From Sphingomonadaceae bacterium 3R27C6 (lineage in GTDB: Bacteria; Pseudomonadota; Alphaproteobacteria; Sphingomonadales; Sphingomonadaceae): a DNA stretch of 64,000 nt. Both the position numbers and the translations under genes were made by a program. The notes below the pieces were generated by a model. It saw only the letters and a list, made by a program, of their open reading frames with translations. It did no database searches and was not told the DNA's origin. Of this stretch, positions 40,383 through 55,541 are shown piece by piece. The stretch's first letter is position 1. Each line of letters starts with the position of its first letter. The stretch is taken from the NCBI GenBank assembly GCA_005503215.1, contig SCNS01000001.1:124001-188000 (forward strand), given 5' to 3'.

Positions 40383-40465
40383 TCGCGGACTTCGCGCTTA
40401 TTATGTCGCATACGTTTGCGGCGCAGAATCTGTAATATTGTGACCGAAATGCCACAGCCGATGCG

Positions 40466-40503
40466 TTGACAATGAGAACGTTCCCATTTAGATAACGTTC
40501 ACA
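40466..40503 (+). promoter_or_regulatory. Promoter with two LacI-type operators before the TonB receptor
   Basis: TTGACA (40466-40471) and TAGATA (40489-40494) have a 17-base spacer. Two palindrome-centred sites overlap it: TGAGAACGTTCCCA (40473-40486) between the boxes and AGATAACGTTCACA (40490-40503) over the -10 box. The AACGTT centres are 17 bases apart. The second site recurs upstream of the GH3 gene. This layout predicts direct repression by a LacI-family protein, most likely the one at 49370. Confidence 0.8.
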
Positions 40504-40551
40504 TAACGGGAATGCCGCCAAAAAAAGAGCGGCTATTTGGGAGGAATGGGG

Positions 40552-43536
40552 ATGCGGGCGTCTCAAAAGCAGTGGCTTGCCAAATTTCTGGTCGGTACGT
40601 CGGCGCTGTCCTTGATGGGCGTGGCGCAAGCGGCCGCCGCGCAGGAAGCACCGGCCGAGGGCGAAGTGAACGGCGACGAGATCGTCGTGACGGGCATCCG
40701 CGCCAGCCTTGCGGCATCGGCCGATATCAAGCGCGAGGCGCAGGGCGTCGTCGACGCGATCTCGGCCGAAGACATCGGCAAATTCCCCGACACCAATCTC
40801 GCCGAATCGCTGCAGCGCATCACCGGCGTGTCGATCGACCGCCAGAATGGTGAAGGCCAGTTGGTCACCGTCCGCGGCTTCGGCCCCGAATTCAACCTGG
40901 TCACGGTCAACGGCCGCCAAGTGCCGACCGCCGTCATCGGTGATGGCGGCAGCGCGCCGTCGTCGCGCTCGTTCGACTTCGCCAATCTCGCATCCGAAGG
41001 CATCGCGGGCGTCGAAGTCTATAAGAGCGGCCGCGCGACGATCGAATCGGGCGGCATCGGTTCGACCATCAACATCCGCACGCCGCGCCCGCTCGACAAT
41101 CCGGGCCTGCGCGGCAGCCTTTCGGTCAAGGGCGTGTACGACAGTTCGCGCAACGAGGGGAAGCCGATCACGCCCGAAGTGTCGGGCATCATCAGCACGA
41201 CCTTCGCCGACGACCGGGTCGGCATCATGATTGCCGGCTCGTATCAGAAACGCAAATCGAGCACGAACACGGCGAACGTCGGTTGGCGTGATGGCTATCT
41301 TGGCAGTGAGAACAACTGGGGTTCGCTGGCGCAGCCGGGCACGCCGCGCGCCGCGAATATTACCAATCGTCCCGAAGCGAACGACGTGTATCAGGTTCCG
41401 CAGAATGCGTCCTATGCGCTCGAAGATATCGATCGCGAGCGCATCAATGGTCAGGCGGTGCTGCAATTCCGTCCCAGCGACAATCTCACCGCGACGGTCG
41501 ACTATATCTATTCACGTAACACCGTCGAAACGCGCAACAGCAATGTCGGCGTGTGGTTCAACCATGAGGACACGTCGAGCGCGTGGACCGATGGTCCGAT
41601 CGCCGGCCCGCTCTTCTATACCGAACGCTTCGCCGCGCCGACGGGGGTTCCGGGCCCGAATGCACTCTATGGCGGTAAGGATCTGTCCTACAGCGGCGCC
41701 CTCCAGGAGAATCGGGCGGAGAATAAATCGGCGGGTTTCAACCTCGAATGGAAGGGGCCGGACGGCGTAACCTTCGAACTCGACGCGCATCATTCGACGG
41801 CGGAGGTCAAGCCGGTCAACCGTTTCGGTTCGAGCATGTCGCTGGGCAACGCCGTCTTCGGCGTTCAGAACCAGACGATCAATTTCGAAAACGACCTGCC
41901 GGTCATTTCCTATAACATGTTCTCGGGGATCGATCCGCTGAACCGGTCGCTGGTCACCCCGACGGGCAGCGCCTTTCGAAATGCCTATTTCCGCAACCGG
42001 ATCAATCAGGTGCAATTGCGCGGTCAGTATGACCATGAAGGCGGCTTCCTCGACAGCATCGATTTCGGTGTGTCGTATGTCGACAGCAAGGTGCGCTCGG
42101 CGTTCGGTACGATCCAGAACGACGACACCTGGGGCGGTGCGGGTCCGGCATCGGGGATTCCCGACGATATCTTCGATCTCGTGACGCTTCCGGACAAATT
42201 TCCGGGGCTTGCCCAGCCGGGGATGATCCAGAGCTTCTACGGTTTCAACTTCGAACGGATGGCCGATCTTTTCGAGCAAAATTATCAGGCGTGCAGCAAT
42301 CCGGCGACGGGTTCGGCCCAGTCGGGCACATGTCTCGCCAATTTCGACACCGACCGGCGCATCGGCGAAAAAACGCTGGCTCCCTATCTGCAGGTCGCGA
42401 CGGAGTTCGACCTGTTCCAGAATCCGGCCCATTTCGTGGCCGGGATCCGCTACGAAACGACCGATGTCGCATCGGCGGCGCTGGTGCCGGTGCCGGTTAC
42501 GACCACCTGGGTGGGCGATAACGAGCTCAACGTCGTCTTTTCGGGCGAGAGCGACTTCACGCGGTTCAAGGGATCGTATGACAATTGGCTGCCCGCCTTC
42601 GATCTCGACATCTCGCCGATGGAGAATGTTAAATTGCGGGCGTCGTACAGCCACACGATCACCCGCTCCAACTTCGCCAATTTGCAGGGCGGGCGCACGA
42701 TCGACACGCTGTTCCGCGTCGGCGGCGGCACGGGCGCGCAGGGCAATCCCGGGCTGATCCCCTTCAAATCGAAGAATATCGATCTGTCGGCCGAATGGTA
42801 TTACGCACCCGACAGCTATGTGTCGGTGGGTTATTTCCACAAGGATGTGAGCAACTTCATATCGACGACGCGCATCGACTCCAACGCGTTCGGGCTGACG
42901 ACGCCGATAGGCGGGCCGCGGTGGAATGCTGCGCTGGGCGCGCTTGGCGCCAATGCGACCGTCAGCCAGATCCGGCAATATATCATCACGAACTTCCCAA
43001 GCACGGTGACCGGCAATGTCATCAACGCGGCGCCGGGCGATCCGCTGGTCAATTTCGAGATCACGACGCCGATCAACAGCGATCAGACGGCGGCGCTCAA
43101 CGGCTGGGAATTCGCGATACAGCACAGCTTCTGGGATACCGGTTTCGGCGTGATCCTGAACTATACGATCGTCAACGGCGACGCGGTTTACGACAACACC
43201 CAGCCGTCGTCGGTGCCGCAGTTCGCACTGACTGGTCTCAGCGACAGTGCCAACGCGGTTGCCTATTATGACAAGAATGGGCTCCAGGCGCGTGTCGCAT
43301 GGAACTGGCGCGACGAATTCCTCGCCCAAACGGGTCCCAATCCCAACTATACCGAGGAATATTGGCAGATCGACGCCAGCGCGAGCTATGAGTTCATCCC
43401 CGGCCTGACCGGCTTCGTCGAGGCGATCAACCTGACCGGCGAGGGGCGCCGCGGGCATCTTCGCCACAACAATAATGTCACCTTCGTACAGCCGGGCTTC
43501 GCCCGCTATGCGGCAGGGGTCAGGTTCAGCTTCTAA
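40552..43536 (+). CDS. TonB-dependent receptor (Xanthomonas/Caulobacter type)
   Basis: A 994-residue outer-membrane receptor for energised uptake. Signal peptide to about residue 30, TonB-box-like EIVVTGIRASL, a plug domain (about 55-190; AISAEDIGKFPDTNLAESLQRI, VTVRGFGPEFNLVTVNGR), then a large beta-barrel ending in the aromatic terminus RYAAGVRFSF. This subfamily (TIGR01782-like) is often tied to glycan uptake. Start ATG 40552 follows GGGAGGA by six bases; TTG and ATG codons just upstream are alternatives. Its promoter carries two operators. First gene of the carbohydrate locus. Confidence 0.93.
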   Translation: MRASQKQWLAKFLVGTSALSLMGVAQAAAAQEAPAEGEVNGDEIVVTGIRASLAASADIKREAQGVVDAISAEDIGKFPDTNLAESLQRITGVSIDRQNGEGQLVTVRGFGPEFNLVTVNGRQVPTAVIGDGGSAPSSRSFDFANLASEGIAGVEVYKSGRATIESGGIGSTINIRTPRPLDNPGLRGSLSVKGVYDSSRNEGKPITPEVSGIISTTFADDRVGIMIAGSYQKRKSSTNTANVGWRDGYLGSENNWGSLAQPGTPRAANITNRPEANDVYQVPQNASYALEDIDRERINGQAVLQFRPSDNLTATVDYIYSRNTVETRNSNVGVWFNHEDTSSAWTDGPIAGPLFYTERFAAPTGVPGPNALYGGKDLSYSGALQENRAENKSAGFNLEWKGPDGVTFELDAHHSTAEVKPVNRFGSSMSLGNAVFGVQNQTINFENDLPVISYNMFSGIDPLNRSLVTPTGSAFRNAYFRNRINQVQLRGQYDHEGGFLDSIDFGVSYVDSKVRSAFGTIQNDDTWGGAGPASGIPDDIFDLVTLPDKFPGLAQPGMIQSFYGFNFERMADLFEQNYQACSNPATGSAQSGTCLANFDTDRRIGEKTLAPYLQVATEFDLFQNPAHFVAGIRYETTDVASAALVPVPVTTTWVGDNELNVVFSGESDFTRFKGSYDNWLPAFDLDISPMENVKLRASYSHTITRSNFANLQGGRTIDTLFRVGGGTGAQGNPGLIPFKSKNIDLSAEWYYAPDSYVSVGYFHKDVSNFISTTRIDSNAFGLTTPIGGPRWNAALGALGANATVSQIRQYIITNFPSTVTGNVINAAPGDPLVNFEITTPINSDQTAALNGWEFAIQHSFWDTGFGVILNYTIVNGDAVYDNTQPSSVPQFALTGLSDSANAVAYYDKNGLQARVAWNWRDEFLAQTGPNPNYTEEYWQIDASASYEFIPGLTGFVEAINLTGEGRRGHLRHNNNVTFVQPGFARYAAGVRFSF

Positions 43537-43560
43537 GGCGGATGGGCCATTTCCGCCGGG

Positions 43561-43606
43561 ACGCAGGCAAGAGGGTCGCATCTTTCGGGGTGCGGCTCTT
43601 TTGCGT
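43561..43606 (+). terminator. Hairpin after the TonB receptor gene
   Basis: CAAGAG...CGCA (43569-43580) pairs with TGCG...CTCTT (43591-43600), followed by TT; outer ACGCA and TGCGT extend it. It lies between the receptor and the halogenase operon and may let only part of the transcription continue. Confidence 0.55.
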
Positions 43607-43641
43607 GACGGCGGCGGAGGGTTGGCTTAGGATCGACGGCA

Positions 43642-45171
43642 ATGAATAGCGCGATCGAGAGGGTTGTCATCGTGGGCGGCGGCACCGCCGGATGGCTCGC
43701 GGCTTGCCTTCTCGCCAGCGCGCCTCGCGCCGCAAAGCTCGACGTCACGCTGATCGAGGCGCCCGACATTCCGACGATCGGCGTTGGCGAGGGAACCTGG
43801 CCGACGATGCGCGCGACACTGGCATCGATCGGGATCGGTGAGGGTGAATTCCTTGCCGCGTGCGACGGATCGTTCAAACAGGGATCGCGCTTCGACGGCT
43901 GGGTGACCGGCGCCGAGGGCGACCGCTATCTGCACCCGTTCACGCCGCCGCCGGCCGCTCCGACCGCCGAGTTGCTCGCGGCCTGGCAGCGGTGCGTGCC
44001 CGAGCTTCCGTTCGCGGCGGCGATGACCGCGCAGGCGCATGTTTGCGACCTCGACCTTGCGCCGCGCCAACGCGCGATGCCCGACTATCAGGGCGCGGCG
44101 AATTACGCCTATCACCTCGATGCGGGCAAGTTCGCGGCGCTGCTTGCGATGCATGCGGTCCAGCGGCTCGGGGTGCGCCATATATCGGACCATGTCGTCG
44201 ATGTGGCGCGCGACGATGCGGGCGGCATCGCATCGGTGGCGACGCGCCGGAATGGCGATATCGCGGGCGATCTGTTCATCGATTGCAGCGGCCATGCATC
44301 GTTGCTGATCGGCGGCGAGCTCGGCGTCGAATGGATCGATCGCGGCGATGTCTTGTTCAACGACCGTGCGCTCGCGGCGCAGGTGCCGGTCGCGCCGGGC
44401 AGCCCGATCGCGTCGCAGACGGTGTCGACCGCGCATGAAGCGGGCTGGATCTGGGACATCGGCCTGCCGGGCCGCCGCGGCATCGGCTGTGTCTATGCCA
44501 GCCGCTTTATGGACGACGATGCGGCGGAGGCGACCTTGCGCGCCTATATCGCGCGCGTGCTGCCCGATGCGCCCGATGTTCCGGCGCGGCGGCTGACCTT
44601 TCCGACCGGGCACCGCGCGCGTTTCTGGGAAGGCAATTGCGTCGCGATCGGCCTGTCAGCGGGGTTCATCGAACCGCTCGAGGCATCGGCGATCGTGATG
44701 ATCGAATTGTCGCTGAAGGCGCTCATCGACAATTTCCCGGCGCGCCGCGCGGCGATGCCGATCCACGCCGCCCGCTTCAACGAGCTGTTCCGCTATCGCT
44801 GGGATCGCATCGTCGAGTTCCTCAAGCTCCATTATGTGCTGAGCCGGCGCGAAGAGCCCTATTGGCGTGCGCAGCGCGACCCCGCGCACATGCCGCCGCG
44901 CCTGACGGAGATGCTGGAGCTGTGGCGCGACCAGCCGCCGTCGGCTTGGGATTTCCCGCGCGTCGACGAGATATTCTCGGCCGAAAGCCACCAATATATC
45001 CTCTATGGCATGGGTTATCCGGTGCCCGCCGATCTGCCCGCGAGCGAGCGGGCGGACGCCTTGCTCGCCGAGAACCGGCAGCGCGCCCGCGCGCTCGCCG
45101 CGGCGCTGCCCGCCAATCGCGACTATCTCGACGCCCTCGCGCCCGGCGCCCATAGCGCTGCAGCGCGATAG
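43642..45171 (+). CDS. Tryptophan-halogenase-like flavoprotein 1
   Basis: A 509-residue FAD-dependent halogenase-family protein. The FAD motif GGGTAGW is at 12-18, and a lysine at 79 (SFKQG) matches in position the catalytic Lys79 of PrnA. EPLEAS lies at 344-349. The halogenase signature WxWxIP is altered to WIWDIGLP (269-276), with Gly replacing Pro. It would need a flavin reductase, not encoded here. It starts the tight operon leading to SapC, JmjC, halogenase 2 and GH16. Whether it halogenates free indoles, a peptide or a glycan ligand is unknown. Confidence 0.88.
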
Positions 45172-45183
45172 GAAAGGAATTTG

Positions 45184-45903
45184 ATGACCCGCCACGCCGT
45201 CCTCGACAACAAGACCCACCGCGACCTGCGCATCCGGACCGACGCGGGGGCGGACCTCGGCGACGACATCATGGCCACGCTGACGGTGCCGAGCGAGTTC
45301 CGGCGGGTGCAGGCGCATTTCCCGATCCTCTTCCGCCGCGAAACCGGGCGCGAGGAATTTACCGCGCTGGCGATGTTCGGTTTCGAAAATGGCGAGAATC
45401 TGTTCCTCGACGGCGACCGCTGGGATGCGCGCTATCGCCCGCTGTCGGCGGCGATCCAGCCGTTCCTGATCGGGCGTCCGGCGGGCGGTGACGGTCCGGG
45501 GCAGATCCATATCGACATGGACCACCCGCGCATCGCCGCGACCGGCGAGGGCATAAGGCTGTTCGATGCCGACGGCATGGCCACGCCCTATCTCGATGAC
45601 ATCGCCGGGCGGCTCGGCGACCTCGACGAAGGCTATCGCGAGAGCGGCGCCTTTTACGACGCGCTGCTCGCCTATGACCTGCTCGAACCGTTCAGCCTCG
45701 AAGTCACACTCGACGACGGATCGATCCATTCGCTCGTCGGCTTCCACATCATCGACGAGGCGAAGCTGCGTGCGCTCGATGCCGAGGCGCTCGGCGCGCT
45801 CCACGCGGCGGGGCATCTGATGCCCATGTTCATGGCACTCGCCTCGCTGTCGCAGCTGTCGGTGCTCGTCGCGCGCAAGAACCGCAGGCTGGCCGGTGGC
45901 TGA
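45184..45903 (+). CDS. SapC-family protein
   Basis: A 239-residue protein of the SapC family (named after a Campylobacter S-layer-associated protein, function unclear). Recognisable segments are FRRVQAHFPILFRRE near residue 38, ALAMFGFENGENLFL and a late MPMFMALASLSQLSVLVARKN. No signal peptide. AGGAA precedes the ATG. It lies 12 bases after halogenase 1 and overlaps the JmjC gene by eight. SapC, cupin_8 and halogenase genes travel together beside TonB receptors in several proteobacteria, so a shared job is likely. Confidence 0.87.
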   Translation: MTRHAVLDNKTHRDLRIRTDAGADLGDDIMATLTVPSEFRRVQAHFPILFRRETGREEFTALAMFGFENGENLFLDGDRWDARYRPLSAAIQPFLIGRPAGGDGPGQIHIDMDHPRIAATGEGIRLFDADGMATPYLDDIAGRLGDLDEGYRESGAFYDALLAYDLLEPFSLEVTLDDGSIHSLVGFHIIDEAKLRALDAEALGALHAAGHLMPMFMALASLSQLSVLVARKNRRLAGG

Positions 45904-46927
45904 GCGCGACCGCGTCCTATACGACCGCCTCGCGCCGGTGCCCGAGCGCGAATGGAATAAGGGGGCGGGGCTCGACGCGTTGCTGGAAGGCGCGCGCGAG
46001 CCCTTTGTCCTTCGCGGGCTGGTAAGCGACTGGCCGCTGGTTGCGGCGGGCAAGCGCTCGGCGCGCGACGCACGGCGCTATTTGCTCGATCACGCGCGCG
46101 ACCGCCCGTTCAAGGTGTCGATCGGCGCGCCGGGGCACGATGGGCGGCTGTTCTACGACGCCGAGATGGAGATGAATTTCCGCATCGGGACGGGCAAGCT
46201 CGCCGACATCTTCGGCGGCATCGATACCGCCGAGGACCGCGGCGAAAACCGCACCGTCTATCTCGCGTCGATCGACATCCCCTCGCATTTCGACGGGCTC
46301 GACGAAGCCAATAGGGTCGATCTTGGCGCGCGCGATCCGTTGAAGAGTATCTGGATCGGGACGCGTACGAAGATCGCGGCGCATAACGATTTCCCCGACA
46401 ACCTTGCTTGCTGTGCGGTGGGCCGGCGCCGTTTCACGCTGTTTCCGCCGCACCAGTTTCGCAACCTCTATCTGGGCCCGATCGACAACACGCCCGCGGG
46501 CCGCGCGGTCAGCATGGTCGATTTCGATGCGCCCGACCTGACGGCCTTCCCGCGCTTCGTCGATGCGATGGCGGAGGCGCAGACGATCGAACTCGAACCC
46601 GGCGACGCGATTTTCATCCCGTCGATGTGGTGGCACCATGTCGAGGGGCTCGCCGACTTCAATGTGCTGGTCAATTATTGGTGGCGCAGCACGCCCGCCT
46701 GGCTCGGGCAGCCACAGGTCGCGCTGAACCACGCGATCCTCGCGATCCGCGACCTGCCGCCCGAGGACAAGGCGATCTGGCGCGAGCTGTTCGACCATTA
46801 TGTGTTCGAGAATGACGAGCAGGTCACCGACCATATTCCCGAAAAGGCGCGCAGCATCCTGGCGCGGCTTACCCCCGAAAGCGCCGGGCGCCTCCGCGCT
46901 TTCCTGTTGAGGACACTCAGCCGATGA
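45896..46927 (+). CDS. Cupin_8/JmjC-like putative Fe(II)/2-oxoglutarate oxygenase
   Basis: A 343-residue protein of the cupin_8 (JmjC-like) family. The facial-triad HxD is H163-N-D165 in AAHNDFPDN; the distal histidine is in MWWHHVEG (247 or 248). Spacing and context match FIH-type hydroxylases that act on protein side chains. The start is GTG at 45896 overlapping sapC; the stop overlaps halogenase 2 (ATGA). A protein or peptide substrate made in the same locus is possible; not demonstrable from sequence. Confidence 0.85.
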   Translation: MAERDRVLYDRLAPVPEREWNKGAGLDALLEGAREPFVLRGLVSDWPLVAAGKRSARDARRYLLDHARDRPFKVSIGAPGHDGRLFYDAEMEMNFRIGTGKLADIFGGIDTAEDRGENRTVYLASIDIPSHFDGLDEANRVDLGARDPLKSIWIGTRTKIAAHNDFPDNLACCAVGRRRFTLFPPHQFRNLYLGPIDNTPAGRAVSMVDFDAPDLTAFPRFVDAMAEAQTIELEPGDAIFIPSMWWHHVEGLADFNVLVNYWWRSTPAWLGQPQVALNHAILAIRDLPPEDKAIWRELFDHYVFENDEQVTDHIPEKARSILARLTPESAGRLRAFLLRTLSR

Positions 46928-48426
46928 AAGAAGATAAACACGTCCAGCGCATCGTGATTGCGGGCGGCGGCACCGCGGGCTGGATGGCCGCGGCCGCGAT
47001 CGCGCGCACGCTGGGGCAGGCGGTCGACCTGACGCTCGTGGAGTCCGAGGCAATCGGGACGATCGGCGTCGGCGAGTCCACGATTCCGCCGCTGGTCAAT
47101 TTCAATCGCATCCTGCGCATCAACGAAGCCGATTTCATGCGCGCGACGCAGGCGACCTTCAAGCTCGGCATATTGTTCGACGACTGGAAGGATCTGGGGA
47201 CGCAATATTTCCACAGCTTCGGCCTGACCGGCAAGGATCACTGGTCGGCGGGCTTTCAGCATTTCTGGCTCTATGGTCGCACCAAGGGGCATCAGCAGCC
47301 CTATGACGATTATTGCATGGAGCTGAAGGCGGCGATCGCGGGCAAGTTCGCGCATCTGCCCGAAGACCGCATGAACTACGCCTATCAGCTCGATTCCGGC
47401 CTCTACGCGCGCTTCCTGCGCGAGATGGCCGAGGCCGACGGAACGAAGCGCATCGAGGGCAAGATCGCGCGCGTCGAACTCGACGGGACAAGCGGCGACA
47501 TCGCGGCGCTCGTCCTCGACGGCGACCGGCGGATCGAGGGCGATATGTTCATCGATTGCACGGGCTTTCGCGCGCTGTTGATGGAGGGCGCGCTCCACGC
47601 AGGCTTCGACGACTGGAGCAACTGGCTGCCGTGCGACAGCGCGATCGCGCTCCAGACCCCGAACGTCCATCCGCCGGTCCCCTATACGCGCGTCATGGCG
47701 CACGACGCAGGTTGGCAATGGCGCATTCCGCTCCAGCACCGCACCGGCAACGGCATCGTCTATTGCAGCCGCTATCTCGACAAGGATGCGGCGCTCGACC
47801 GGATGCTCGGCAATATCGAAGGCGACGTGCTGACCGAGCCCAATTTCCTGCGCTTCACCGCGGGCACGCGGCGCAAGCAATGGTATCGCAACTGCGTCGC
47901 CATGGGGCTGTCGGCGGGCTTCATGGAGCCGCTGGAATCGACCGCCATCCACCTGATCCAGCGATCGGTGCTGCGCTTCATCCGCATGCTGCCCGCGGGG
48001 CGCGTCAGCGAGCGCGACGTCGCCGAGTTTAACGAGCAGCAGATGCAGGACATGCTGCAAATCCGCGATTTCCTTGTCCTTCATTACAAGGTGACCAACC
48101 GCCGTGACAGCCCGTTCTGGCGCCATTGCGCGGCGATGCCGATCCCCGATACGCTGGCGCAGAAGATCGAGCTGTTCCGCGAAACCGGCCGCGTCTTCCG
48201 CAAGAATGAGGAATTGTTCGCCGAAAACAGCTGGGTGCAGGTTATGATGGGGCAGGGGATCGAGCCGCAAAGCCATCACCCGATTGCCGAAAAGCTGCGC
48301 GACGACGAGCTCGACCGGTTGCTCGAAGCGATCCGCAGCGAGGTGCGCCAGACGGTCGCCGGCCTGCCCGCGCATCAGGATTATGTCGCCCGCTATTGCG
48401 GCGCCGCGGTCCCACAGGCGGCCTGA
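46924..48426 (+). CDS. Tryptophan-halogenase-like flavoprotein 2
   Basis: A 500-residue flavin-dependent halogenase-family protein with all hallmark motifs: GGGTAGW at 14-20, catalytic-type lysine at 80 (TFKLG), the full WQWRIP at 264-269 and EPLEST at 335-340. Unlike halogenase 1 it keeps the canonical WxWxIP. Sequence similarity to halogenase 1 is clear but moderate, so the two are old paralogues. Overlaps the JmjC gene by four bases and the GH16 gene by one. Substrate unknown. Confidence 0.9.
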   Translation: MKEDKHVQRIVIAGGGTAGWMAAAAIARTLGQAVDLTLVESEAIGTIGVGESTIPPLVNFNRILRINEADFMRATQATFKLGILFDDWKDLGTQYFHSFGLTGKDHWSAGFQHFWLYGRTKGHQQPYDDYCMELKAAIAGKFAHLPEDRMNYAYQLDSGLYARFLREMAEADGTKRIEGKIARVELDGTSGDIAALVLDGDRRIEGDMFIDCTGFRALLMEGALHAGFDDWSNWLPCDSAIALQTPNVHPPVPYTRVMAHDAGWQWRIPLQHRTGNGIVYCSRYLDKDAALDRMLGNIEGDVLTEPNFLRFTAGTRRKQWYRNCVAMGLSAGFMEPLESTAIHLIQRSVLRFIRMLPAGRVSERDVAEFNEQQMQDMLQIRDFLVLHYKVTNRRDSPFWRHCAAMPIPDTLAQKIELFRETGRVFRKNEELFAENSWVQVMMGQGIEPQSHHPIAEKLRDDELDRLLEAIRSEVRQTVAGLPAHQDYVARYCGAAVPQAA

Positions 48427-49370
48427 TGCGCCTCGCCGCCTTTCTGTTGATGGCGACGGTGTTCGCGGGCGCGGCCGATGCGCGCGCGCCAGCGGGCGGC
48501 GACTGGCGGCTCGCTTGGTCGGACGAATTCGACAGCCCCGCGATCGATCGAGGCAAATGGGACTTCGACGTCGATTGTTGGGGCGGCGGCAACAACGAGC
48601 GGCAATGCTACACCGACAAGCGCCGCAACGCCGCGATCGAGGACGGCAAGCTGGTCATCACCGCGCGCAAGGAAAAGGCGACGGGACCCGCCTTCCCGCT
48701 GGCGCAGCGCGGCGATCCGGAAAAGGCAAGGGCGGTGGCGACGAAAGGCTTCACATCGGCCCGCCTCGTCACGCGCGGCCAGGCGGCGTGGACCTATGGC
48801 AAGATCGAGGTGCGCGCGCGGCTGCCGCAGGGGCAGGGGACATGGCCCGCGATCTGGATGCTGCCCGAGACCAATCATTATGGCACCTGGGCCGCGTCGG
48901 GCGAGATCGACATATTGGAAGCGGTGAACCTCGGCGTGCGCTGCGACACCTGCGAAGGCGGGATCGAGAACCGCATTCTCGGCACGCTGCATTTCGGCGG
49001 CCAATGGCCGGACAACAAGCACAAGGGCGACGAAACCGCGCTCCCGGCGCCGCTCGATGGCTTCCACATCTTCGGCATCGTCTGGAAAAAGGGCAGGATC
49101 GTCTGGACGGTCGACGGCAAGCCCTATGCGACGCGCGTCGCGAGCGAGTGGTCGACGAGCGGATCGACCGATCCCGCGGCGCCGTTCGACCGCCCCTTTC
49201 ACCTCATCCTGAACCTCGCGGTCGGCGGCGGGCTCGCCGAAGGACGCGGGCTGAAGGGCGTCGATGAACGCGGCTACCCGAAAATTATGGAAATAGATTG
49301 GGTTCGCGTATGGCAATGCGGGGACGATGGCGTTAGCGATTGCGGCAGTACGGGGGATCAAGAGCGATAA
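48426..49370 (+). CDS. GH16 family endo-beta-glucanase
   Basis: A 314-residue secreted glycoside hydrolase with a signal peptide (about 1-20). The catalytic ExDxxE motif is E160-I-D162-I-L-E165 in SGEIDILEAVN, typical of GH16 laminarinases/lichenases. WSDEFD near the N-terminus and WPAIWMLP add support. It should cut beta-1,3- (or mixed-linkage) glucans outside the inner membrane. Overlaps halogenase 2 by one base (TGATG) and the LacI gene by one (TAATG). Confidence 0.92.
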   Translation: MRLAAFLLMATVFAGAADARAPAGGDWRLAWSDEFDSPAIDRGKWDFDVDCWGGGNNERQCYTDKRRNAAIEDGKLVITARKEKATGPAFPLAQRGDPEKARAVATKGFTSARLVTRGQAAWTYGKIEVRARLPQGQGTWPAIWMLPETNHYGTWAASGEIDILEAVNLGVRCDTCEGGIENRILGTLHFGGQWPDNKHKGDETALPAPLDGFHIFGIVWKKGRIVWTVDGKPYATRVASEWSTSGSTDPAAPFDRPFHLILNLAVGGGLAEGRGLKGVDERGYPKIMEIDWVRVWQCGDDGVSDCGSTGDQER

Positions 49371-50434
49371 TGGGGCGTCGGCGGCAGTCGGTTACGATCA
49401 AGCATGTTGCGGCCGACGCGGGGGTGTCGCTGCAGACCGTGAGCCGCGTCATCAACAACGAGCCCAATGTCCGGCCCGAGATGAAAGAGCGGGTGCAGGC
49501 GTCGATCGACAAGCTCGGCTATGTTCCCTCGATCGCGGCGCAGCGGATGAGCGGTTCGCGTTCCTATCTGATCCTCGCGATCAACGACCGCGAACGCACG
49601 ATCGCCGACTGGCAGGGGCGGCAGGGGGTCGACTGGGTCGACCAGATGCTGCTCGGCGGGATGCTGAAATGCGCCGAATATGGCTACCGCATGATCTTCG
49701 AGCTGGTCGACACGCACAATGATCATGTCGAACGCGAACTGCGCGCGGCGATCGCGGCGCTGCAGCCCGACGGGGTGATCCTGACCCCGCCGCATTCGGA
49801 CAATCCGCTGATCGTCGGCCTGCTCGACCAGCAGAAGATCCCGTTCGCGCGCATCGGATCGCGCGGCGGCGCGGCGGGCATTGCGCTGACGATGGACGAC
49901 GAAGGATCGGCGCGGCGCGCGACGCGGCACCTGATCGACCTTGGTCACAAACGCATCGGGTTCATTCCGGGCTCGCCCGAATATAGCCTCAGCCGCTGGC
50001 GCATCGACGGCTGGGAAGGCGAAATGGCGGCGGCTGGCCTCGCCACCGACGGGCTGCTTGCCGAGGGCGATTTCACTTATGCGTCGGGCGCCGCCGCGGC
50101 GCGGCACCTGCTCGGCGGCGCCAATCCGCCGACGGCGATCATCGCGAGCAGCGACCAGATGGCGCTCGCGACCTTGGAGGTTGCGCGCGACCTCGGCATC
50201 GATGTGCCGGGACAATTGTCGATCGTCAGTTTCGACAACACGCCGGTCGTCCGCTTCACCCAGCCGGCGCTGACCGCGGTCGACCAGCCCGTCGCCGAAA
50301 CCGCGTCGCGCGCGGTCGAACTGATCATCGCGGCGCAGCGCGGGGCGCCGCGCCCGACCGAACCGACGCGTGTTCAGGGCGGCCTCGTCCAGCGCGGGTC
50401 GACCGCTGCGCCGCCTGTCGCCGTCCATGGCTGA
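49370..50434 (+). CDS. LacI-family transcriptional regulator
   Basis: A 354-residue repressor-type regulator: N-terminal LacI helix-turn-helix (VTIKHVAADAGVSLQTVSRVI, about 9-30), hinge PSIAAQRMSGSRS, then a periplasmic-binding-protein-like sugar domain with IIASSDQMALATLEVARDLGI. The start at 49370 overlaps the GH16 stop. It is the only LacI protein in the window, and LacI operators of the AACGTT type occur before the TonB receptor and GH3 genes, so it is the likely regulator of both. Confidence 0.92.
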   Translation: MGRRRQSVTIKHVAADAGVSLQTVSRVINNEPNVRPEMKERVQASIDKLGYVPSIAAQRMSGSRSYLILAINDRERTIADWQGRQGVDWVDQMLLGGMLKCAEYGYRMIFELVDTHNDHVERELRAAIAALQPDGVILTPPHSDNPLIVGLLDQQKIPFARIGSRGGAAGIALTMDDEGSARRATRHLIDLGHKRIGFIPGSPEYSLSRWRIDGWEGEMAAAGLATDGLLAEGDFTYASGAAAARHLLGGANPPTAIIASSDQMALATLEVARDLGIDVPGQLSIVSFDNTPVVRFTQPALTAVDQPVAETASRAVELIIAAQRGAPRPTEPTRVQGGLVQRGSTAAPPVAVHG

Positions 50435-51626
50435 CGCCGGAACCCCGCGCCGCCAGTCTCTCCCGTTCCTCCTGCTTTATGCGCTCGCGTCGGCGGGCGG
50501 GGCGATCGCCTATGTTCCCTTCCTGACCATCTGGCTGCCCGGGCGCATGACCCAGCTGGCGGGAACCGCCGACGTGCAGACGCTGGGATATGTCACCTTT
50601 TTCGGCGCGGTGGCGGCGAGCATCGGCGGCATCGGTTTCGGCTGGCTCAGCGATTTGACGCGCAATCGGCGCGGCTGGATATTGGCGGGGCTGATCCTGA
50701 CGATCGTCTTGCTGCTGGCTGTCCCGCTGGCGCATGACATATGGTCGCTGGTGGCGATGATCGTTGCGTGGCAACTCACGCTCAACATGATGCTCGGGCC
50801 GCTCGCGGCATGGGCGGGCGACTGCGTTCCCGACGAACAAAAGGGCCTGCTCGGCGGGTTGCTCGCCTTTTCGCCCGCGCTCGGCGGCTGGTCGGGATGG
50901 CTTGTCACCTGGCCGGGGCTGGTGTCGGCGGAGCAGCGGCTGGTGGTCATTGCACTGCTGGTAGCGAGCGCCGTCCTGCCGGTGCTGCTGCTTGGCCGCC
51001 CGCGCGCCTTCCCCGATCTCACCGCACCGCCGCCGGTGCGCGCGGTTGGGGAGGCGCGTCGGCGGCGGCCGACCGGTCCGGCGGTGCGGATGTGGCTGGC
51101 GCGCCTGCTCGTCCAGATCGCCGAGGCGGCGCTGTTTGCCTATCTCTATTTCTGGTTCCGCTCGATCGATCCCGGCATGCACGACAATGAAAAGGCGCGA
51201 TTGTTCGGCATGGCGCTGACGATCGCGATTCCGATCGCGCTGGCGGCCGGCCGCTGGGCCGACCGCAACGACCGGCCCTTCCTGCCGCTTGTCGCCGCCG
51301 CGGCGGTGTCGAGCCTCGGAATGGTCGGCATGGCACTGGCGACGGGGCTCGACGCGGCGAAGGCGAGCTACCTCGTCTTCGGCATCGCGTCGACGGTGTT
51401 CCTGTCGCTGCATAGCAGCCAGACGCTGCGCATCCTGCCGCGGTCGGACCGGCGCGGGCGCGACCTGGGCATCTTCAACCTGACCAACACCGTGCCGTCG
51501 CTGATCATGCCGTGGCTGACGATCTCGCTCGTCCCGGGCTTCGGTTTCGACGCGCTTTTCCTGCTGCTCGCCGGACTCTCCGCGATCGCGGTGCTGCTGC
51601 TCGCGACGATGCCGCGGCTACGCTGA
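50427..51626 (+). CDS. MFS transporter
   Basis: A 399-residue, twelve-helix major facilitator protein. Helix-rich sequence starts at residue 10 (LPFLLLYALASAGGAIAYVPFLTIWLP) and includes GWLSDLTRNRRGW, the loop 2-3 motif of MFS. It belongs to the nucleoside/oligosaccharide:H+ symporter-like end of the superfamily by general appearance. It overlaps the LacI gene by eight bases and ends the halogenase-to-MFS operon. Probably imports the sugar released by GH16/GH3. Confidence 0.87.
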   Translation: MADAGTPRRQSLPFLLLYALASAGGAIAYVPFLTIWLPGRMTQLAGTADVQTLGYVTFFGAVAASIGGIGFGWLSDLTRNRRGWILAGLILTIVLLLAVPLAHDIWSLVAMIVAWQLTLNMMLGPLAAWAGDCVPDEQKGLLGGLLAFSPALGGWSGWLVTWPGLVSAEQRLVVIALLVASAVLPVLLLGRPRAFPDLTAPPPVRAVGEARRRRPTGPAVRMWLARLLVQIAEAALFAYLYFWFRSIDPGMHDNEKARLFGMALTIAIPIALAAGRWADRNDRPFLPLVAAAAVSSLGMVGMALATGLDAAKASYLVFGIASTVFLSLHSSQTLRILPRSDRRGRDLGIFNLTNTVPSLIMPWLTISLVPGFGFDALFLLLAGLSAIAVLLLATMPRLR

Positions 51627-51681
51627 TATAGCCCGAAAACAGAGCGCTTGCTTTCATCCACCCACTATGCGAAGTGAAGAT

Positions 51682-51695
51682 TGATAACGTTCACA
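51682..51695 (+). promoter_or_regulatory. LacI-type operator before the GH3 gene
   Basis: TGATAACGTTCACA, followed by TAAG, shares GATAACGTTCACATAA with the second operator of the TonB receptor promoter. It lies 21 bases before the GH3 start. No clear -35/-10 pair was recognised around it. Confidence 0.75.
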
Positions 51696-51715
51696 TAAGA
51701 GGGATGGGAGAGACG

Positions 51716-54199
51716 ATGCGCCGACAGGCAATGGTCATGGCGACTGCGCTGCTTTTGGCAGGAACCGCTATGGCGGCACCCGAGACGACCGGAACAGACG
51801 CCGCGACGGTGCATCCCGAGCTATGGCCCGCAGCGAAAAGCCCCGCCGCGATCTCCGACGCCAAAACCGAAGCGCGCATCGATGCGCTGATCGCGAAAAT
51901 GACGGTCGAGCAAAAGGTCGGCCAGCTCGTCCAGGCCGACATCAGCACGGTCACGCCCAAGGACCTCGAAACCTACCCGCTCGGCTCGATCCTCGCCGGC
52001 GGGAACAGCGGGCCGAACGGCAATGAACGTTCGACCGCGGCTGACTGGGCGAAGCTGGTCGGCGATTTTCGTGCCGTGTCCTTGCGTCCGCAGGCGAATG
52101 GCGTTGCGATCCCGATCATCTTCGGCGTCGATGCGGTCCACGGTCACAACAATATCCCCGGCGCGACTTTGTTCCCGCACAATATCGGGCTCGGCGCCGC
52201 GCGCGATCCCGAGTTGATCCAGCGCATCGGCGCGGTTACCGCGGCCGAAATCGCGGGGAGCGGGATCGAGTGGACCTTCGCTCCGACGCTCGCGGTGCCG
52301 CAGGATTTGCGTTGGGGACGGAGCTATGAAGGCTATGCGTCCGACCCGAAGCTGATCGCCGACTATGCCAAGGCGATGGTGCTCGGGCTGCAGGGGCCGC
52401 TGGTCGCGGGAAAGACGGTCGACGCGCGCCATGTCGCGGCAACCGCCAAGCATTTCCTCGCCGACGGCGGGACGTTCGAGGGCAAGGACCAGGGCGATGC
52501 CAAGGTCGACGAAAAGGAACTGATCGCGAAACACGCGATGGGCTACCCCGCCGCGATCGACGCCGGCGCGCTGACCGTGATGGCGAGCTTCTCGAGCTGG
52601 CAGGGTGTCAAGCATCACGGCAATAAGGGGCTGCTCACCGACGCGCTCAAGGACAAGATGGGCTTTGCGGGCTTCGTCGTCGGCGACTGGAACGGGCATG
52701 GGCAGGTTGCGGGATGCAGCGTCACCGATTGCGCGCAGTCGATCAACGCCGGGCTCGACATGTTCATGGCGCCCGACAGCTGGAAGGGGCTGTACGAAAC
52801 GACGCTGAAGCACGCGAAAGACGGGACGATATCGGCCGCGCGGCTCGACGATGCGGTGCGGCGTATCCTGCGCGTCAAATACAAGCTCGGCCTGTTCCCC
52901 GAAGGCCATGTCGACCGCAGCATTGTGAAAGCCGTCGGTTCGCCGGAGCATCTGGCGGTTGCGCGCGAAGCGGCCGCCAAGTCGCTCGTCCTGCTCAAGA
53001 ACAATGGCAGCGTGCTGCCGATCAAGCCCGGGGCGCGCGTGCTCGTCACCGGCCCCGCGGCCGACAGCATGGCGATCCAGTCGGGCGGCTGGACGATCAG
53101 CTGGCAGGGCACCGACGTCACCCACGCCGACTTCCCCAACGGCCAGACGATCTGGGAAGCGCTGGACAAGTCGGTGCGCGACGCGGGCGGCGTCGCGACG
53201 CTGTCCGACGGCGGCGCGTATAAGGAAAAGCCCGACGTCGCGATCGTCGTGTTCGGCGAGGCGCCCTATGCCGAATTCCAGGGCGACGTGGCGACGCTCG
53301 ACTATCAGCCGTCGGAGGCAACCGATCTCACGGCGCTCAAGAAGCTGAAGGCCGCGGGCATTCCCGTGGTCGCGCTGTTCCTGTCGGGGCGCCCGATGTT
53401 CACCAACCCCGAAATCAACGCCGCCGACGCGTTCGTCGCGGGCTGGCTGCCGGGGTCGCAGGGCGCCGGCGTCGCCGACGTGCTCGTCGCGGGCAAGGAC
53501 GGCAAGACGGTGCGCGGCTTTACCGGCACGCTGCCTTTCGCCTGGCCCGCCGACGCGCGATCGCCCGTCGAAAAGCCGCAGTTCGCGGTCGGCTATGGTT
53601 TGAAATATGGTGCGAACACGACGGTTCCGCAGCTATCCGAGGAATTGGGCGTCGACATCGCGGCGGCGCTGAACGTCGAGAATTTCTTCTCGGGCGGACG
53701 CGCGCGCGCGCCTTGGGTGTTGACGGTAACCGACGCGGGCGGATCGCGCCCGGTGGAATCGCCGCCGGTATCGAGTCCGGGCGGCCTGATCGCCGCGCGC
53801 TCGGTCGATGTCCGCGCGCAGGAGGATGGCAAGAGCTTCGTCTGGACCGGTCCCGCCGCGCTGCATCTCAGCGGCCCCTATGCCGACCTGACGCGGCAGC
53901 TGAACAACAGTTTCGCGCTGCGCGTCGACTGGCGGGTCGACGCGATCGGCAGTGCCCCGGTCACTCTCGCGCTCGGCGGCAAGGCGTTCGACGTCTCGGC
54001 GGCAGTCAAGGCGGCGCCCAAGGGGCAGGTGTCGACGATCAAAGTGCCGCTCCGCTGCTTCGCCGATGCGGGCGCCAATCTGCGGCAGGTCGACTATGCC
54101 GCCTCGATCACGAGCGACAAGGGCTTCGCCGCGACGCTGCTGAATACGAATGTCGAGGCGGTCGGGGAGAATCTGCCTTGCCCACCGGCGGTAAAGTGA
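51716..54199 (+). CDS. GH3 family beta-glucosidase, exported
   Basis: An 827-residue GH3 enzyme with signal peptide (about 1-20). The catalytic nucleophile is Asp324 in FVVGDWNGHG; AKHF at 244-247 is the conserved Lys-His. The (alpha/beta)8 domain (about 50-400) is followed by the alpha/beta sandwich and a C-terminal beta-rich domain (about 660-827), as in ExoP-like exo-1,3/1,4-beta-glucosidases. It releases glucose from beta-glucan oligosaccharides, probably in the periplasm. GGGAG precedes the ATG; a LacI operator lies just upstream. Confidence 0.94.
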   Translation: MRRQAMVMATALLLAGTAMAAPETTGTDAATVHPELWPAAKSPAAISDAKTEARIDALIAKMTVEQKVGQLVQADISTVTPKDLETYPLGSILAGGNSGPNGNERSTAADWAKLVGDFRAVSLRPQANGVAIPIIFGVDAVHGHNNIPGATLFPHNIGLGAARDPELIQRIGAVTAAEIAGSGIEWTFAPTLAVPQDLRWGRSYEGYASDPKLIADYAKAMVLGLQGPLVAGKTVDARHVAATAKHFLADGGTFEGKDQGDAKVDEKELIAKHAMGYPAAIDAGALTVMASFSSWQGVKHHGNKGLLTDALKDKMGFAGFVVGDWNGHGQVAGCSVTDCAQSINAGLDMFMAPDSWKGLYETTLKHAKDGTISAARLDDAVRRILRVKYKLGLFPEGHVDRSIVKAVGSPEHLAVAREAAAKSLVLLKNNGSVLPIKPGARVLVTGPAADSMAIQSGGWTISWQGTDVTHADFPNGQTIWEALDKSVRDAGGVATLSDGGAYKEKPDVAIVVFGEAPYAEFQGDVATLDYQPSEATDLTALKKLKAAGIPVVALFLSGRPMFTNPEINAADAFVAGWLPGSQGAGVADVLVAGKDGKTVRGFTGTLPFAWPADARSPVEKPQFAVGYGLKYGANTTVPQLSEELGVDIAAALNVENFFSGGRARAPWVLTVTDAGGSRPVESPPVSSPGGLIAARSVDVRAQEDGKSFVWTGPAALHLSGPYADLTRQLNNSFALRVDWRVDAIGSAPVTLALGGKAFDVSAAVKAAPKGQVSTIKVPLRCFADAGANLRQVDYAASITSDKGFAATLLNTNVEAVGENLPCPPAVK

Positions 54200-54248
54200 C
54201 AAGACCGTCATCCGGGTTAGCCTGAGACAAGGCAAGGGGAGAGAGATA

Positions 54249-55541
54249 ATGGCATTGGCGCCGAACGTCGCGACGAACGCGACCGAACAGCCGGGCAAGG
54301 GCGGTAACAGCACACGCGTGGTGTTGATCCTCGCCTTTGCGGTGTTTTTCCTGCTGGGCGGGGTGACGAACATCAACGACCTGCTGGTCGGCAAGTTCAA
54401 GCCGATGTTCCACCTGACGCATGCGCAGGCGAACCTCGTGCAGATGGCGTTTTTCATCGCCTATGGCGCCTTTTCGATCCCCGCCGGCATCATCATGTCG
54501 AAACTGGGCTATATCCGCACCTTCGTGCTCGGGTTCATCATTGTGGCGGCGGCCGCCTTCCTCTTCATCCCGGCTTCGGCCGCGGCATCCTACCCCGGCT
54601 TCCTCGCGGCGCTCTTTTGCATCGGTGCGGGGATCACGGTCCTGCAGGTGGCGATGAATCCGGTGATCACCACGCTGGGCCCCGTCGAGACCTCGCACAG
54701 CCGGCTGACCTTTGCGCAGGCGTTCAATTCGATCGGGGTGTTCCTGATGGTCTATGGCGGCGCGACCTTCCTGCTCGGCGACGAGCAGCCGATCGACGCC
54801 GAGACCGCGAGCGAGGCGCAGATTCAGGCCTATCGCGTCGCCGAGGGCGCGTCGATCGGCACCGCCTATATGTGGCTCGGGGTACTGATGCTGGTGATCG
54901 CGGCGGTGTTCTGGATGTATCGGTCGGCGATCGACCACGCCAAAGCCGACGATGTGAAGCTCGAGGGCACCTGGGGCCTGCTTACCCATAACCGCCGCGT
55001 CCAGTTCGGCGCGCTGTGCATCTTCGTCTATGTCGGCGCCGAAGTGGCGATCGGCTCGAACCTGATGGCCTATCTCGCCGAACCGAGCGTGATGGGGCTG
55101 GGGCTCCAGGCGGCGGGCAAGCTGGTGGCGATGTATTGGCTCGGCGCGCTGGTCGGCCGGTTGCTCGGCGGTTTCATCCTGCGACTGGCGAAGCCCGGAC
55201 GCGTGCTCGCGACTTTTGCGGCGGGCGCGATTTCGCTGCTCATCCTGTCGGCGGTGACGACGGGCGCGCTGTCGGGTTGGGCGCTGATTCTGGTCGGCTT
55301 CTGCAATTCGCTGATGTTCCCGACGATCTTCAGCCTCGCGACCGAAGGGCTCGGCGAACGGACGCCGCAGGGGTCGGGCATCATGTGCACCGCAATCATC
55401 GGCGGGGCGATCGTCCCGTTCCTGTTCGGAACGGTCGCCGACCTCAGCGGCGACATCCGGCTCGCGCTGGTCGTGCCGCTGATCTGCTATGCGATCATCG
55501 CAAGTTTCGGGCTGTGGGCGGCGCGTTCGGCCACCGCGTAA
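54249..55541 (+). CDS. MFS sugar permease (FucP/GluP-like)
   Basis: A 430-residue twelve-helix permease resembling the fucose/glucose/galactose:H+ symporters. FFLLGGVTNINDLLVGKFK near residue 35, VQMAFFIAYGAFSIPAGIIMSKLGY and AMNPVITTLGP are typical. It follows GH3 by 49 bases with GGGGAG before its ATG, most likely in the same transcript. It would import the monosaccharide released by GH3. Confidence 0.9.
   Translation: MALAPNVATNATEQPGKGGNSTRVVLILAFAVFFLLGGVTNINDLLVGKFKPMFHLTHAQANLVQMAFFIAYGAFSIPAGIIMSKLGYIRTFVLGFIIVAAAAFLFIPASAAASYPGFLAALFCIGAGITVLQVAMNPVITTLGPVETSHSRLTFAQAFNSIGVFLMVYGGATFLLGDEQPIDAETASEAQIQAYRVAEGASIGTAYMWLGVLMLVIAAVFWMYRSAIDHAKADDVKLEGTWGLLTHNRRVQFGALCIFVYVGAEVAIGSNLMAYLAEPSVMGLGLQAAGKLVAMYWLGALVGRLLGGFILRLAKPGRVLATFAAGAISLLILSAVTTGALSGWALILVGFCNSLMFPTIFSLATEGLGERTPQGSGIMCTAIIGGAIVPFLFGTVADLSGDIRLALVVPLICYAIIASFGLWAARSATA

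Follow-up and report, generated by a model that had tools for sequence, protein, structure and literature searches.

Carbohydrate utilization (CUT), or carbohydrate-scavenging, loci of Xanthomonas and Caulobacter are built from a TIGR01782-type TonB-dependent receptor (TBDR), glycosidases, a regulator and an inner-membrane permease. A locus of this kind is found in the window analyzed here, a stretch of 64,000 nucleotides from Sphingomonadaceae bacterium 3R27C6 (contig SCNS01000001.1 of assembly GCA_005503215.1, positions 124,001 to 188,000). Ten genes, all on the plus strand at 40546-55541 of the window, form a single run that contains a TIGR01782 TBDR (of the Xanthomonas-Caulobacter type), glycosidases, a sugar permease and a regulator. 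The locus is a LacI-type glucan-uptake operon around the TBDR, and it carries a four-gene cassette, FDH1-SapC-Cup8-FDH2, encoding two flavin-dependent halogenase (FDH) homologs, a SapC-family protein and a JmjC-like oxygenase. Matches to Pfam and TIGRFAM families thus bear out the original prediction, made from the sequence alone, that this is a carbohydrate-uptake system with halogenases, SapC and a JmjC-like oxygenase within its operon. For CUT loci, a word search of the main text of Blanvillain 2007 (PMC1790865) found no mention of halogenase, SapC or Pass1.

Among halogenases, FDH2 is a close homolog of Xcc4156 and BrvH, with the FAD, Lys and WxWxIP motifs. According to the accessible portions of the respective reports, the BrvH gene is likewise accompanied by a second FDH gene, and indole may not be the natural substrate of the enzyme (PMC5945002); for BrvH and three Xanthomonas FDHs, the native substrate is stated to be unknown (PMC7336383). 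In the same portions, no mention was found of TonB, gene cluster or genomic context in the Xcc4156 paper (PMC7336383) or of TonB or SapC in the BrvH paper (PMC5945002), nor does the accessible part of PMC8269204 mention TonB or cupin. A literature search that had most subscription journals outside its scope returned no paper that connects these halogenases with SapC or TBDRs, and no assigned function for the four-gene cassette. A functional parallel is provided by QhpG, a flavoprotein monooxygenase which, in the part of the source available, is described as dihydroxylating in-protein Trp in the cytoplasm before translocation (PMC7876137). The FDHs match QhpG weakly, at 32.3 and 35.5 bits against a cut-off of 240, and a radical S-adenosylmethionine enzyme, a protease and an ATP-binding cassette exporter are all missing from the ten genes of the locus. 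FIH, JMJD5 and JMJD7 are protein hydroxylases, and FIH-type enzymes work on protein segments; Cup8 differs from them in being bacterial and in residing in a receptor operon.

Conservation of the cassette and its coupling to the receptor

The cassette is a real conserved unit, and its recurrence in more than 100 loci argues against chance. When one genome per species was scanned with a Cup8 alignment, at least 575 relatives emerged. In the best 80 of these, together with the window, the genes present follow the order TBDR-FDH1-SapC-Cup8-FDH2 without exception (81 of 81). All five genes are found in 63 loci; FDH1 is absent from 12 and the pair of FDHs from 3, and the remaining 3, which sit on short contigs or close to a contig start, are incomplete. 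Among the carriers, by record title, are Sphingopyxis, Sphingomonas, Novosphingobium, Qipengyuania, Caulobacter, Hyphomonadaceae, Stenotrophomonas, Paraferrimonas and Porticoccaceae, and SapC cassettes are spread over Alpha- and Gammaproteobacteria. In 397 Pseudomonadota genomes, searched with a Cup8 profile and with at most five candidates scored per genome, at least 66 matches were found, distributed over 36 genomes. The 64 stretches spanning Cup8 matches, 4 of them already collected earlier, contain a TBDR in 61 cases, FDH2 in 53, SapC in 42, FDH1 in 22, and glycoside hydrolases of families GH3 and GH16 in 31 and 6, respectively. Some depart from the canonical arrangement: FDH1 is located 3' of FDH2 (L224, L228) or between Cup8 and FDH2 (L225), and, in a variant without SapC, Cup8 is placed between two FDHs (L242, L244, L247). 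The final set comprises 122 SapC cassettes, all found via Cup8 (the 81 above and 41 from whole genomes), nearly all of them in the canonical order. All five genes are present in 80; FDH1 is missing from 35, the FDHs altogether from 3, FDH2 from 1 and the TBDR from 2, and 1 consists of SapC and Cup8 alone. The original prediction had halogenase, SapC and cupin genes near TonB receptors in other proteobacteria and named a lack of such co-occurrence as grounds for abandoning it; the comparison of neighborhoods across Proteobacteria confirms the association, and the lack was looked for and did not happen.

One sphingomonad-type cassette (L145) resides in a record titled Bacillus sp. 2B10; this assembly is probably mislabeled or contaminated.

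There is good support for inheritance of the cassette together with the receptor lineage, against a changing set of glycosidases. In the 62 of the 122 loci that have TBDR, FDH2, SapC, Cup8, LacI and GH3, patristic distances correlate with those of the TBDR at 0.895 for SapC, 0.889 for FDH2, 0.875 for Cup8 and 0.801 for LacI, compared to 0.147 for GH3, which may mix subfamilies here; the distances of TBDR, FDH2, SapC and Cup8 agree (r 0.87-0.90). Physical linkage was assessed in five genomes chosen as cassette-rich, against 2000 random placements with rounded genome sizes. Within 5 kb of a TIGR01782 TBDR are 48 of 56 FDHs, of which 39 share its strand (random mean 3.5, maximum 10), 15 of 17 Cup8 genes (1.05, maximum 6) and 12 of 17 SapC genes (1.03, maximum 6), the five unlinked SapC genes being one stand-alone copy per genome. 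Seen from the receptors, an FDH lies within 5 kb of 36 of 96 TBDRs in these genomes. On a tree of 110 TBDRs, a FastTree reconstruction with some long branches and weak deep forks, the FDH label changes 10 times versus 31.6 when shuffled, and none of 500 shuffles was as low. The TBDR of the window belongs to a group of 15 members (support 90, not starred), all FDH-linked and drawn from its own class as well as other classes of the phylum.

The glycosidases, by contrast, are variable. Within 9.5 kb of the 122 SapC cassettes, GH3 occurs in 80 loci, GH16 in 46 and LacI in 89, and 35 have neither GH3 nor GH16. Pfam analysis of 65 large unassigned neighbors of 42 loci identified GH67 (4), GH20 (3), GH9 (3) and GH13 (2), many of the 65 not being glycosidases; 20 of them, scanned singly beside SapC cassettes, included one each of GH9, GH2, GH67 and SASA. 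In the genome of 3R27C6 itself, a second TBDR-FDH2 pair, whose FDH is nearest to 9luq, is part of an alpha-glucan locus with GH13, GH13, GH97, a divergent LacI gene and a major facilitator superfamily (MFS) gene (L072:3696-14851, G000:C5). A beta-glucan-specific role of the cassette was rejected, as GH3 fails to track it and it also has other glycosidases (GH67, GH9, GH2) as neighbors. For the same reasons, namely the high correlation for the TBDR and the near-zero one for GH3, the 35 of 122 cassettes without GH3 or GH16, and the second pair amid GH13/GH13/GH97, the initial framing of the locus as a beta-glucan locus in which halogenases merely happen to be present did not hold.

Halogenases, SapC and Cup8

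Judging from conserved residues, the cassette FDHs possess intact halogenase machinery. The solved structures nearest to FDH2 are 6y1w (Xcc4156; 673.6 bits), 9luq (537.1 bits) and 6frl (BrvH; 459.8 bits), and those nearest to FDH1 are 9ltb (740.7 bits) and then 2pyx. FDH2 has all four halogenase hallmarks, GxGxxG, Lys, Glu and WxWxIP; in FDH1 the WxWxI motif is followed not by P but by G, in 57 of 82 proteins, or by A, in 22 of 82. Across the cassettes, the catalytic residues of FDH2 are retained in 114 of 115 (Lys80) and 115 of 115 (Glu335) proteins, and those of FDH1 in 82 of 82 (Lys79) and 80 of 82 (Glu344), counts that omit open reading frames (ORFs) of 440 aa or less (two FDH2, one FDH1). 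Tandem FDH arrays were also encountered in which intact FDHs flank a divergent FDH-like gene that, by eye, is without the catalytic Lys and WxWxIP (L332:5886-7715 and L283, the latter at G574:C1:830424-831719); its product is possibly a pseudoenzyme subunit. Similarly low-scoring FDH-like genes are found at G010:C1:348166 and G683:C3:89521. In the five cassette-rich genomes, 8 of 56 FDHs are orphans without a TIGR01782 TBDR within 5 kb; three of these form a tandem adjoining GH67, and one is near a TBDR-like ORF of another kind (L335). Orphan FDH1-like genes without a nearby receptor are located at L073:9109-10734, in the neighborhood of Na/H exchanger and cytochrome P450 genes, and at L334:6520-8142.

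SapC was modeled by AlphaFold2 with a predicted local distance difference test score (pLDDT) of 95.1 and a predicted TM score of 0.90, and comparison of the model with the PDB gave no Foldseek match at E<=0.001 and no VIA-align match at Z>=2. A stand-alone SapC is present as one copy in each of the five genomes searched whole and in the genome of 3R27C6, with no TIGR01782 TBDR or FDH within 5 kb (10 kb in the last case, L071). None of the genes beside stand-alone SapC recurs in more than a few of 35 neighborhoods: an oxidase-like gene (named by eye) is directly 5' in 5 of 35, and other recurring genes reach at most 9 of 35 and are kilobases away. A cluster seen in 27 of the 35 was discarded as an antisense reading of SapC itself. 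Cup8 is closest to FIH (profile E 4e-28), then to JMJD5, with matches also to JMJD7 and C2orf60 (3al5). The alignment to FIH spans the HxD...H iron site, and the iron triad His163, Asp165 and His247 is present in 122 of 122 cassettes.

Candidate substrates

We favor the possibility, to which we assign a probability of roughly 0.4, that the cassette is cytosolic and halogenates or hydroxylates its partner TBDR before export. By eye, none of the four cassette proteins has a signal peptide, which points to action in the cytosol, whereas TBDR, GH16 and GH3 have one; enzymes without and a receptor with a signal peptide would be expected to meet in the cytosol ahead of export. This encounter, the precedent of QhpG, the action of FIH-type enzymes on protein segments and a terminator-like hairpin after the receptor gene together make receptor modification the favored reading. 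A perfect hairpin followed by a T-run occupies the gap between TBDR and cassette in 33 of 119 related loci (the imperfect one of the window being uncounted). The corresponding counts are 0 of 119 for in-gene controls, 0.6 for shuffled sequence and, at the end of Cup8, 0 of 122. Such a hairpin would yield receptor in excess of its modifying enzymes, as expected under receptor modification. Further points in favor are the co-phylogeny and linkage of cassette and receptor, the conserved gene order, the near-invariant catalytic residues, the varied glycosidases, the kinship of Cup8 with FIH and JMJD5, and the Trp content, which per 1000 residues is 14.0 in FDH-linked and 10.9 in unlinked TBDRs.

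In mechanistic terms, the cassette enzymes would target the receptor polypeptide while it is nascent or unfolded, ahead of Sec export, with SapC binding the receptor (or the enzymes) and presenting the receptor. Cup8, as an FIH-like oxygenase, would hydroxylate a receptor residue, and one or two halogenases would brominate, chlorinate or otherwise oxidize Trp or Tyr side chains. The modified receptor would then reach the outer membrane, where the modification might tune how it binds ligand, how it gates or how exposed it is to phages and toxins. More tentatively, one may envisage a widespread proteobacterial system in which TonB-dependent sugar receptors are both halogenated and hydroxylated ahead of export and SapC serves as a chaperone or adaptor specific to the receptor; the SapC-linked halogenases of the Xcc4156-like kind, and perhaps BrvH-like ones, would then have their native role here.

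Several observations weigh against receptor modification. Cup8 was the entry point to the loci, and richness in cassettes was the criterion by which the five genomes were picked; both co-phylogeny and linkage also fit vertical inheritance of an operon that acts on something else. Furthermore, 9 of the 64 Cup8 neighborhoods have no FDH: in six a TBDR is present (L199, L232, L243, L245, L248, L249), and in three (L226, at a contig end, L235 and L241) Cup8 is without TBDR or FDH. The adaptor role of SapC draws solely on gene position and the lack of a known fold. C2orf60, a tRNA-modifying enzyme, is among the Cup8 matches, so the fold is no proof of a protein substrate. BrvH, according to the accessible portion of its description, brominates free indole weakly (PMC5945002).

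The residue comparisons point in the same direction. No aromatic column separates the 38 FDH-linked from the 72 unlinked TBDRs; the best separation of linked from unlinked is given by R986 (0.84 vs 0.28), and the best Trp column is W920 (0.66 vs 0.25). When four linked groups, covering 34 of the 38 linked TBDRs, were compared with their sisters, the best score was 1.67 and the reverse comparison gave 2.19. The TBDRs of the three FDH-less cassettes, two of which are near-identical loci, share no loss of any residue that is 93%-conserved elsewhere; other FDHs in these genomes could act in trans. A single modified residue common to all linked TBDRs was thus not found, and these negative results speak against the simple form of the receptor-modification hypothesis, although group-specific targets or trans-acting FDHs could explain them. 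The first of the cassette comparisons covered 72 of 78 cassette TBDRs (ORFs of 900 aa or less dropped) and a later one, without ORFs of 880 aa or less, 113 of 119. In the latter, W528, Y677, Y751 and W920 (numbering from codon 40549) are near-invariant. Y677, Y751 and W920 are present in unlinked TBDRs too; W528 is found in 0 of 13 unlinked TBDRs of the 3R27C6 genome, a pattern inseparable from shared descent because the cassette TBDRs form one clade.

Two cysteines of a long TBDR loop, C582 and C595 (42292-42333), are conserved at 0.87 and 0.93 in the presence of FDH1 versus 0.43 and 0.46 in its absence, which may only mark a subclade.

A peptide substrate was also considered. The window has ORFs of 35 aa and 51 aa at the 105-bp gap between TBDR and FDH1, the other cassette junctions being overlaps or 12 nt. 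No counterpart of either was found in the 12 inspected of 96 plus-strand TBDR-FDH1 gaps, several of which hold terminator-like hairpins instead. In the gaps inspected, no conserved precursor-peptide gene, as expected for a cluster of ribosomally synthesized and post-translationally modified peptides, was found, and this classification was rejected. Of the three candidate substrates suggested at the outset, a ribosomal peptide finds no recurring gene in those gaps, the incoming ligand is unlikely (see below), and the receptor is favored without residue-level support.

It is rather unlikely that the cassette serves the synthesis or breakdown of a small aromatic compound, such as a derivative of indole, tryptophan or phenol, that acts as a signal, inducer or deterrent while the cells grow on glycans, and merely shares the operon with the receptor. 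The intact halogenase machinery would suit such chemistry, and in the available parts of the sources BrvH and three Xanthomonas halogenases act in vitro on indole derivatives, not on free tryptophan (PMC5945002, PMC7336383). However, none of the ten genes of the locus builds a scaffold, and this explanation does not account for why the receptor lineage, rather than GH3, tracks the cassette.

Alteration or removal of an aromatic group on the ligand being taken up, which could be an oligosaccharide or glycopeptide with aromatic decoration, would fit the operator-like site common to the halogenase operon and GH3. We nevertheless consider it quite improbable, because the enzymes cross glycan types: they adjoin GH3/GH16, GH67, GH9 and GH2, and FDH2 without SapC and Cup8 adjoins GH13/GH97. 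Plain starch or laminarin carries no aromatic group, and the enzymes appear cytosolic whereas the glycosidases appear exported. Equally improbable is another exported protein as the substrate, for instance a glycosidase that is secreted or a partner in the outer membrane whose gene lies elsewhere. The cytosolic logic applies equally to it and the receptor residue tests were negative, yet loci exchange their glycosidases and keep cassette and receptor together. Ordinary clustering without functional coupling, in which paralogous uptake loci descend from an FDH-containing ancestor, is very improbable: the linked TBDRs do form a few tree groups, such that a few old associations could explain much of the count, but gene order and catalytic residues are kept at ~45% TBDR identity (window versus gammaproteobacterial records) while GH3 is exchanged.

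Gene layout, putative regulatory sites and implications

The ten genes were found on one strand at the positions first given for them, with some starts revised (Table 1). The most likely start of the TBDR, whose AlphaFold2 model has a pLDDT of 83.7, is the ATG at 40546 or 40552. GH3 probably starts at the ATG at 51704 or 51716, since an operator-like site occupies the sequence immediately upstream. The GH3 protein matches an exo-beta-1,3/1,6-glucosidase model with E 5.6e-78, yet stays under the model cut-off.

Table 1. Genes and putative regulatory features of the locus (window coordinates)
Feature	Coordinates	Strand	Evidence and remarks
LacI-family operator-like site GATAACGTTCACATAA, 5' of TBDR	40491..40506	+	identical 16-mer
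TonB-dependent receptor (TBDR)	40546..43536	+	TIGR01782 633.8 bits (cut-off 310); PF00593, PF07715
Imperfect hairpin then TTTT, between TBDR and cassette	43569..43602	+	read by eye; missed by scans
FDH1, flavin-dependent halogenase homolog	43642..45171	+	PF04820 400.6 bits
SapC-family protein	45184..45903	+	PF07277 208.5 bits; revised start (ATG 45184)
Cup8, Cupin_8/JmjC-like Fe(II)/2-oxoglutarate oxygenase, FIH-like	45896..46927	+	PF13621 225.7 bits
FDH2, flavin-dependent halogenase homolog, Xcc4156/BrvH type	46924..48426	+	PF04820 612.6 bits
GH16 glycosidase	48426..49370	+	PF00722 56.3 bits (cut-off 22); apparent signal peptide (by eye); revised start
LacI-family regulator	49370..50434	+	PF00356, PF13377; revised start
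MFS permease	50427..51626	+	PF07690 72.2 bits; revised start
Second copy of GATAACGTTCACATAA, 5' of GH3	51683..51698	+	identical 16-mer
GH3, beta-glucosidase-like, ExoP C-terminal domain	51704..54199	+	PF00933, PF01915, PF18559; apparent signal peptide
gluP-type MFS glucose/galactose permease	54249..55541	+	TIGR01272 240.6 bits (cut-off 202.55)

The 16-mer GATAACGTTCACATAA has identical copies in the window at 40491 and 51683 only, and an additional AACGTT core is found at 40477, 5' of the TBDR. Allowing up to 3 mismatches, 0.13 matches are expected in the window, and two were reached in 2 of 100 shuffles; the 13-mer core occurs exactly twice in the 5.06-Mb genome, versus 0 for the reversed control. 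In related loci, GAACGTTC is found near the TBDR start in 59 of 114 cases versus 0 of 114 in-gene controls, and the AACGTT core in 70 of 114 versus 5 of 114. As the sites before TBDR and GH3 are identical, a single LacI-type regulator probably governs GH3-gluP as well as the operon with the halogenases, and co-regulation of the halogenases with the glycosidases appears likely. With its own operator-like copy, GH3-gluP may constitute a second transcript. The claim of a single expression unit hence stands in part. The small overlaps on which it was based are real, at 1, 4 and 8 nt from SapC through the first MFS gene (SapC/Cup8, 8 nt; Cup8/FDH2, 4 nt, ATGA; FDH2/GH16, 1 nt; GH16/LacI, 1 nt; LacI/MFS, 8 nt), whereas the gap between TBDR and FDH1 and the separate site before GH3-gluP speak against it.

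Halogenases of the Xcc4156/BrvH type have been crystallized and assayed, and their linkage to the receptor shows where to seek their native substrates. Even if the receptor is not the substrate, the locus belongs to a conserved four-gene cassette that includes a protein without a solved relative. If it is, enzymatic halogenation of an outer-membrane protein would represent a new layer of control over glycan uptake.

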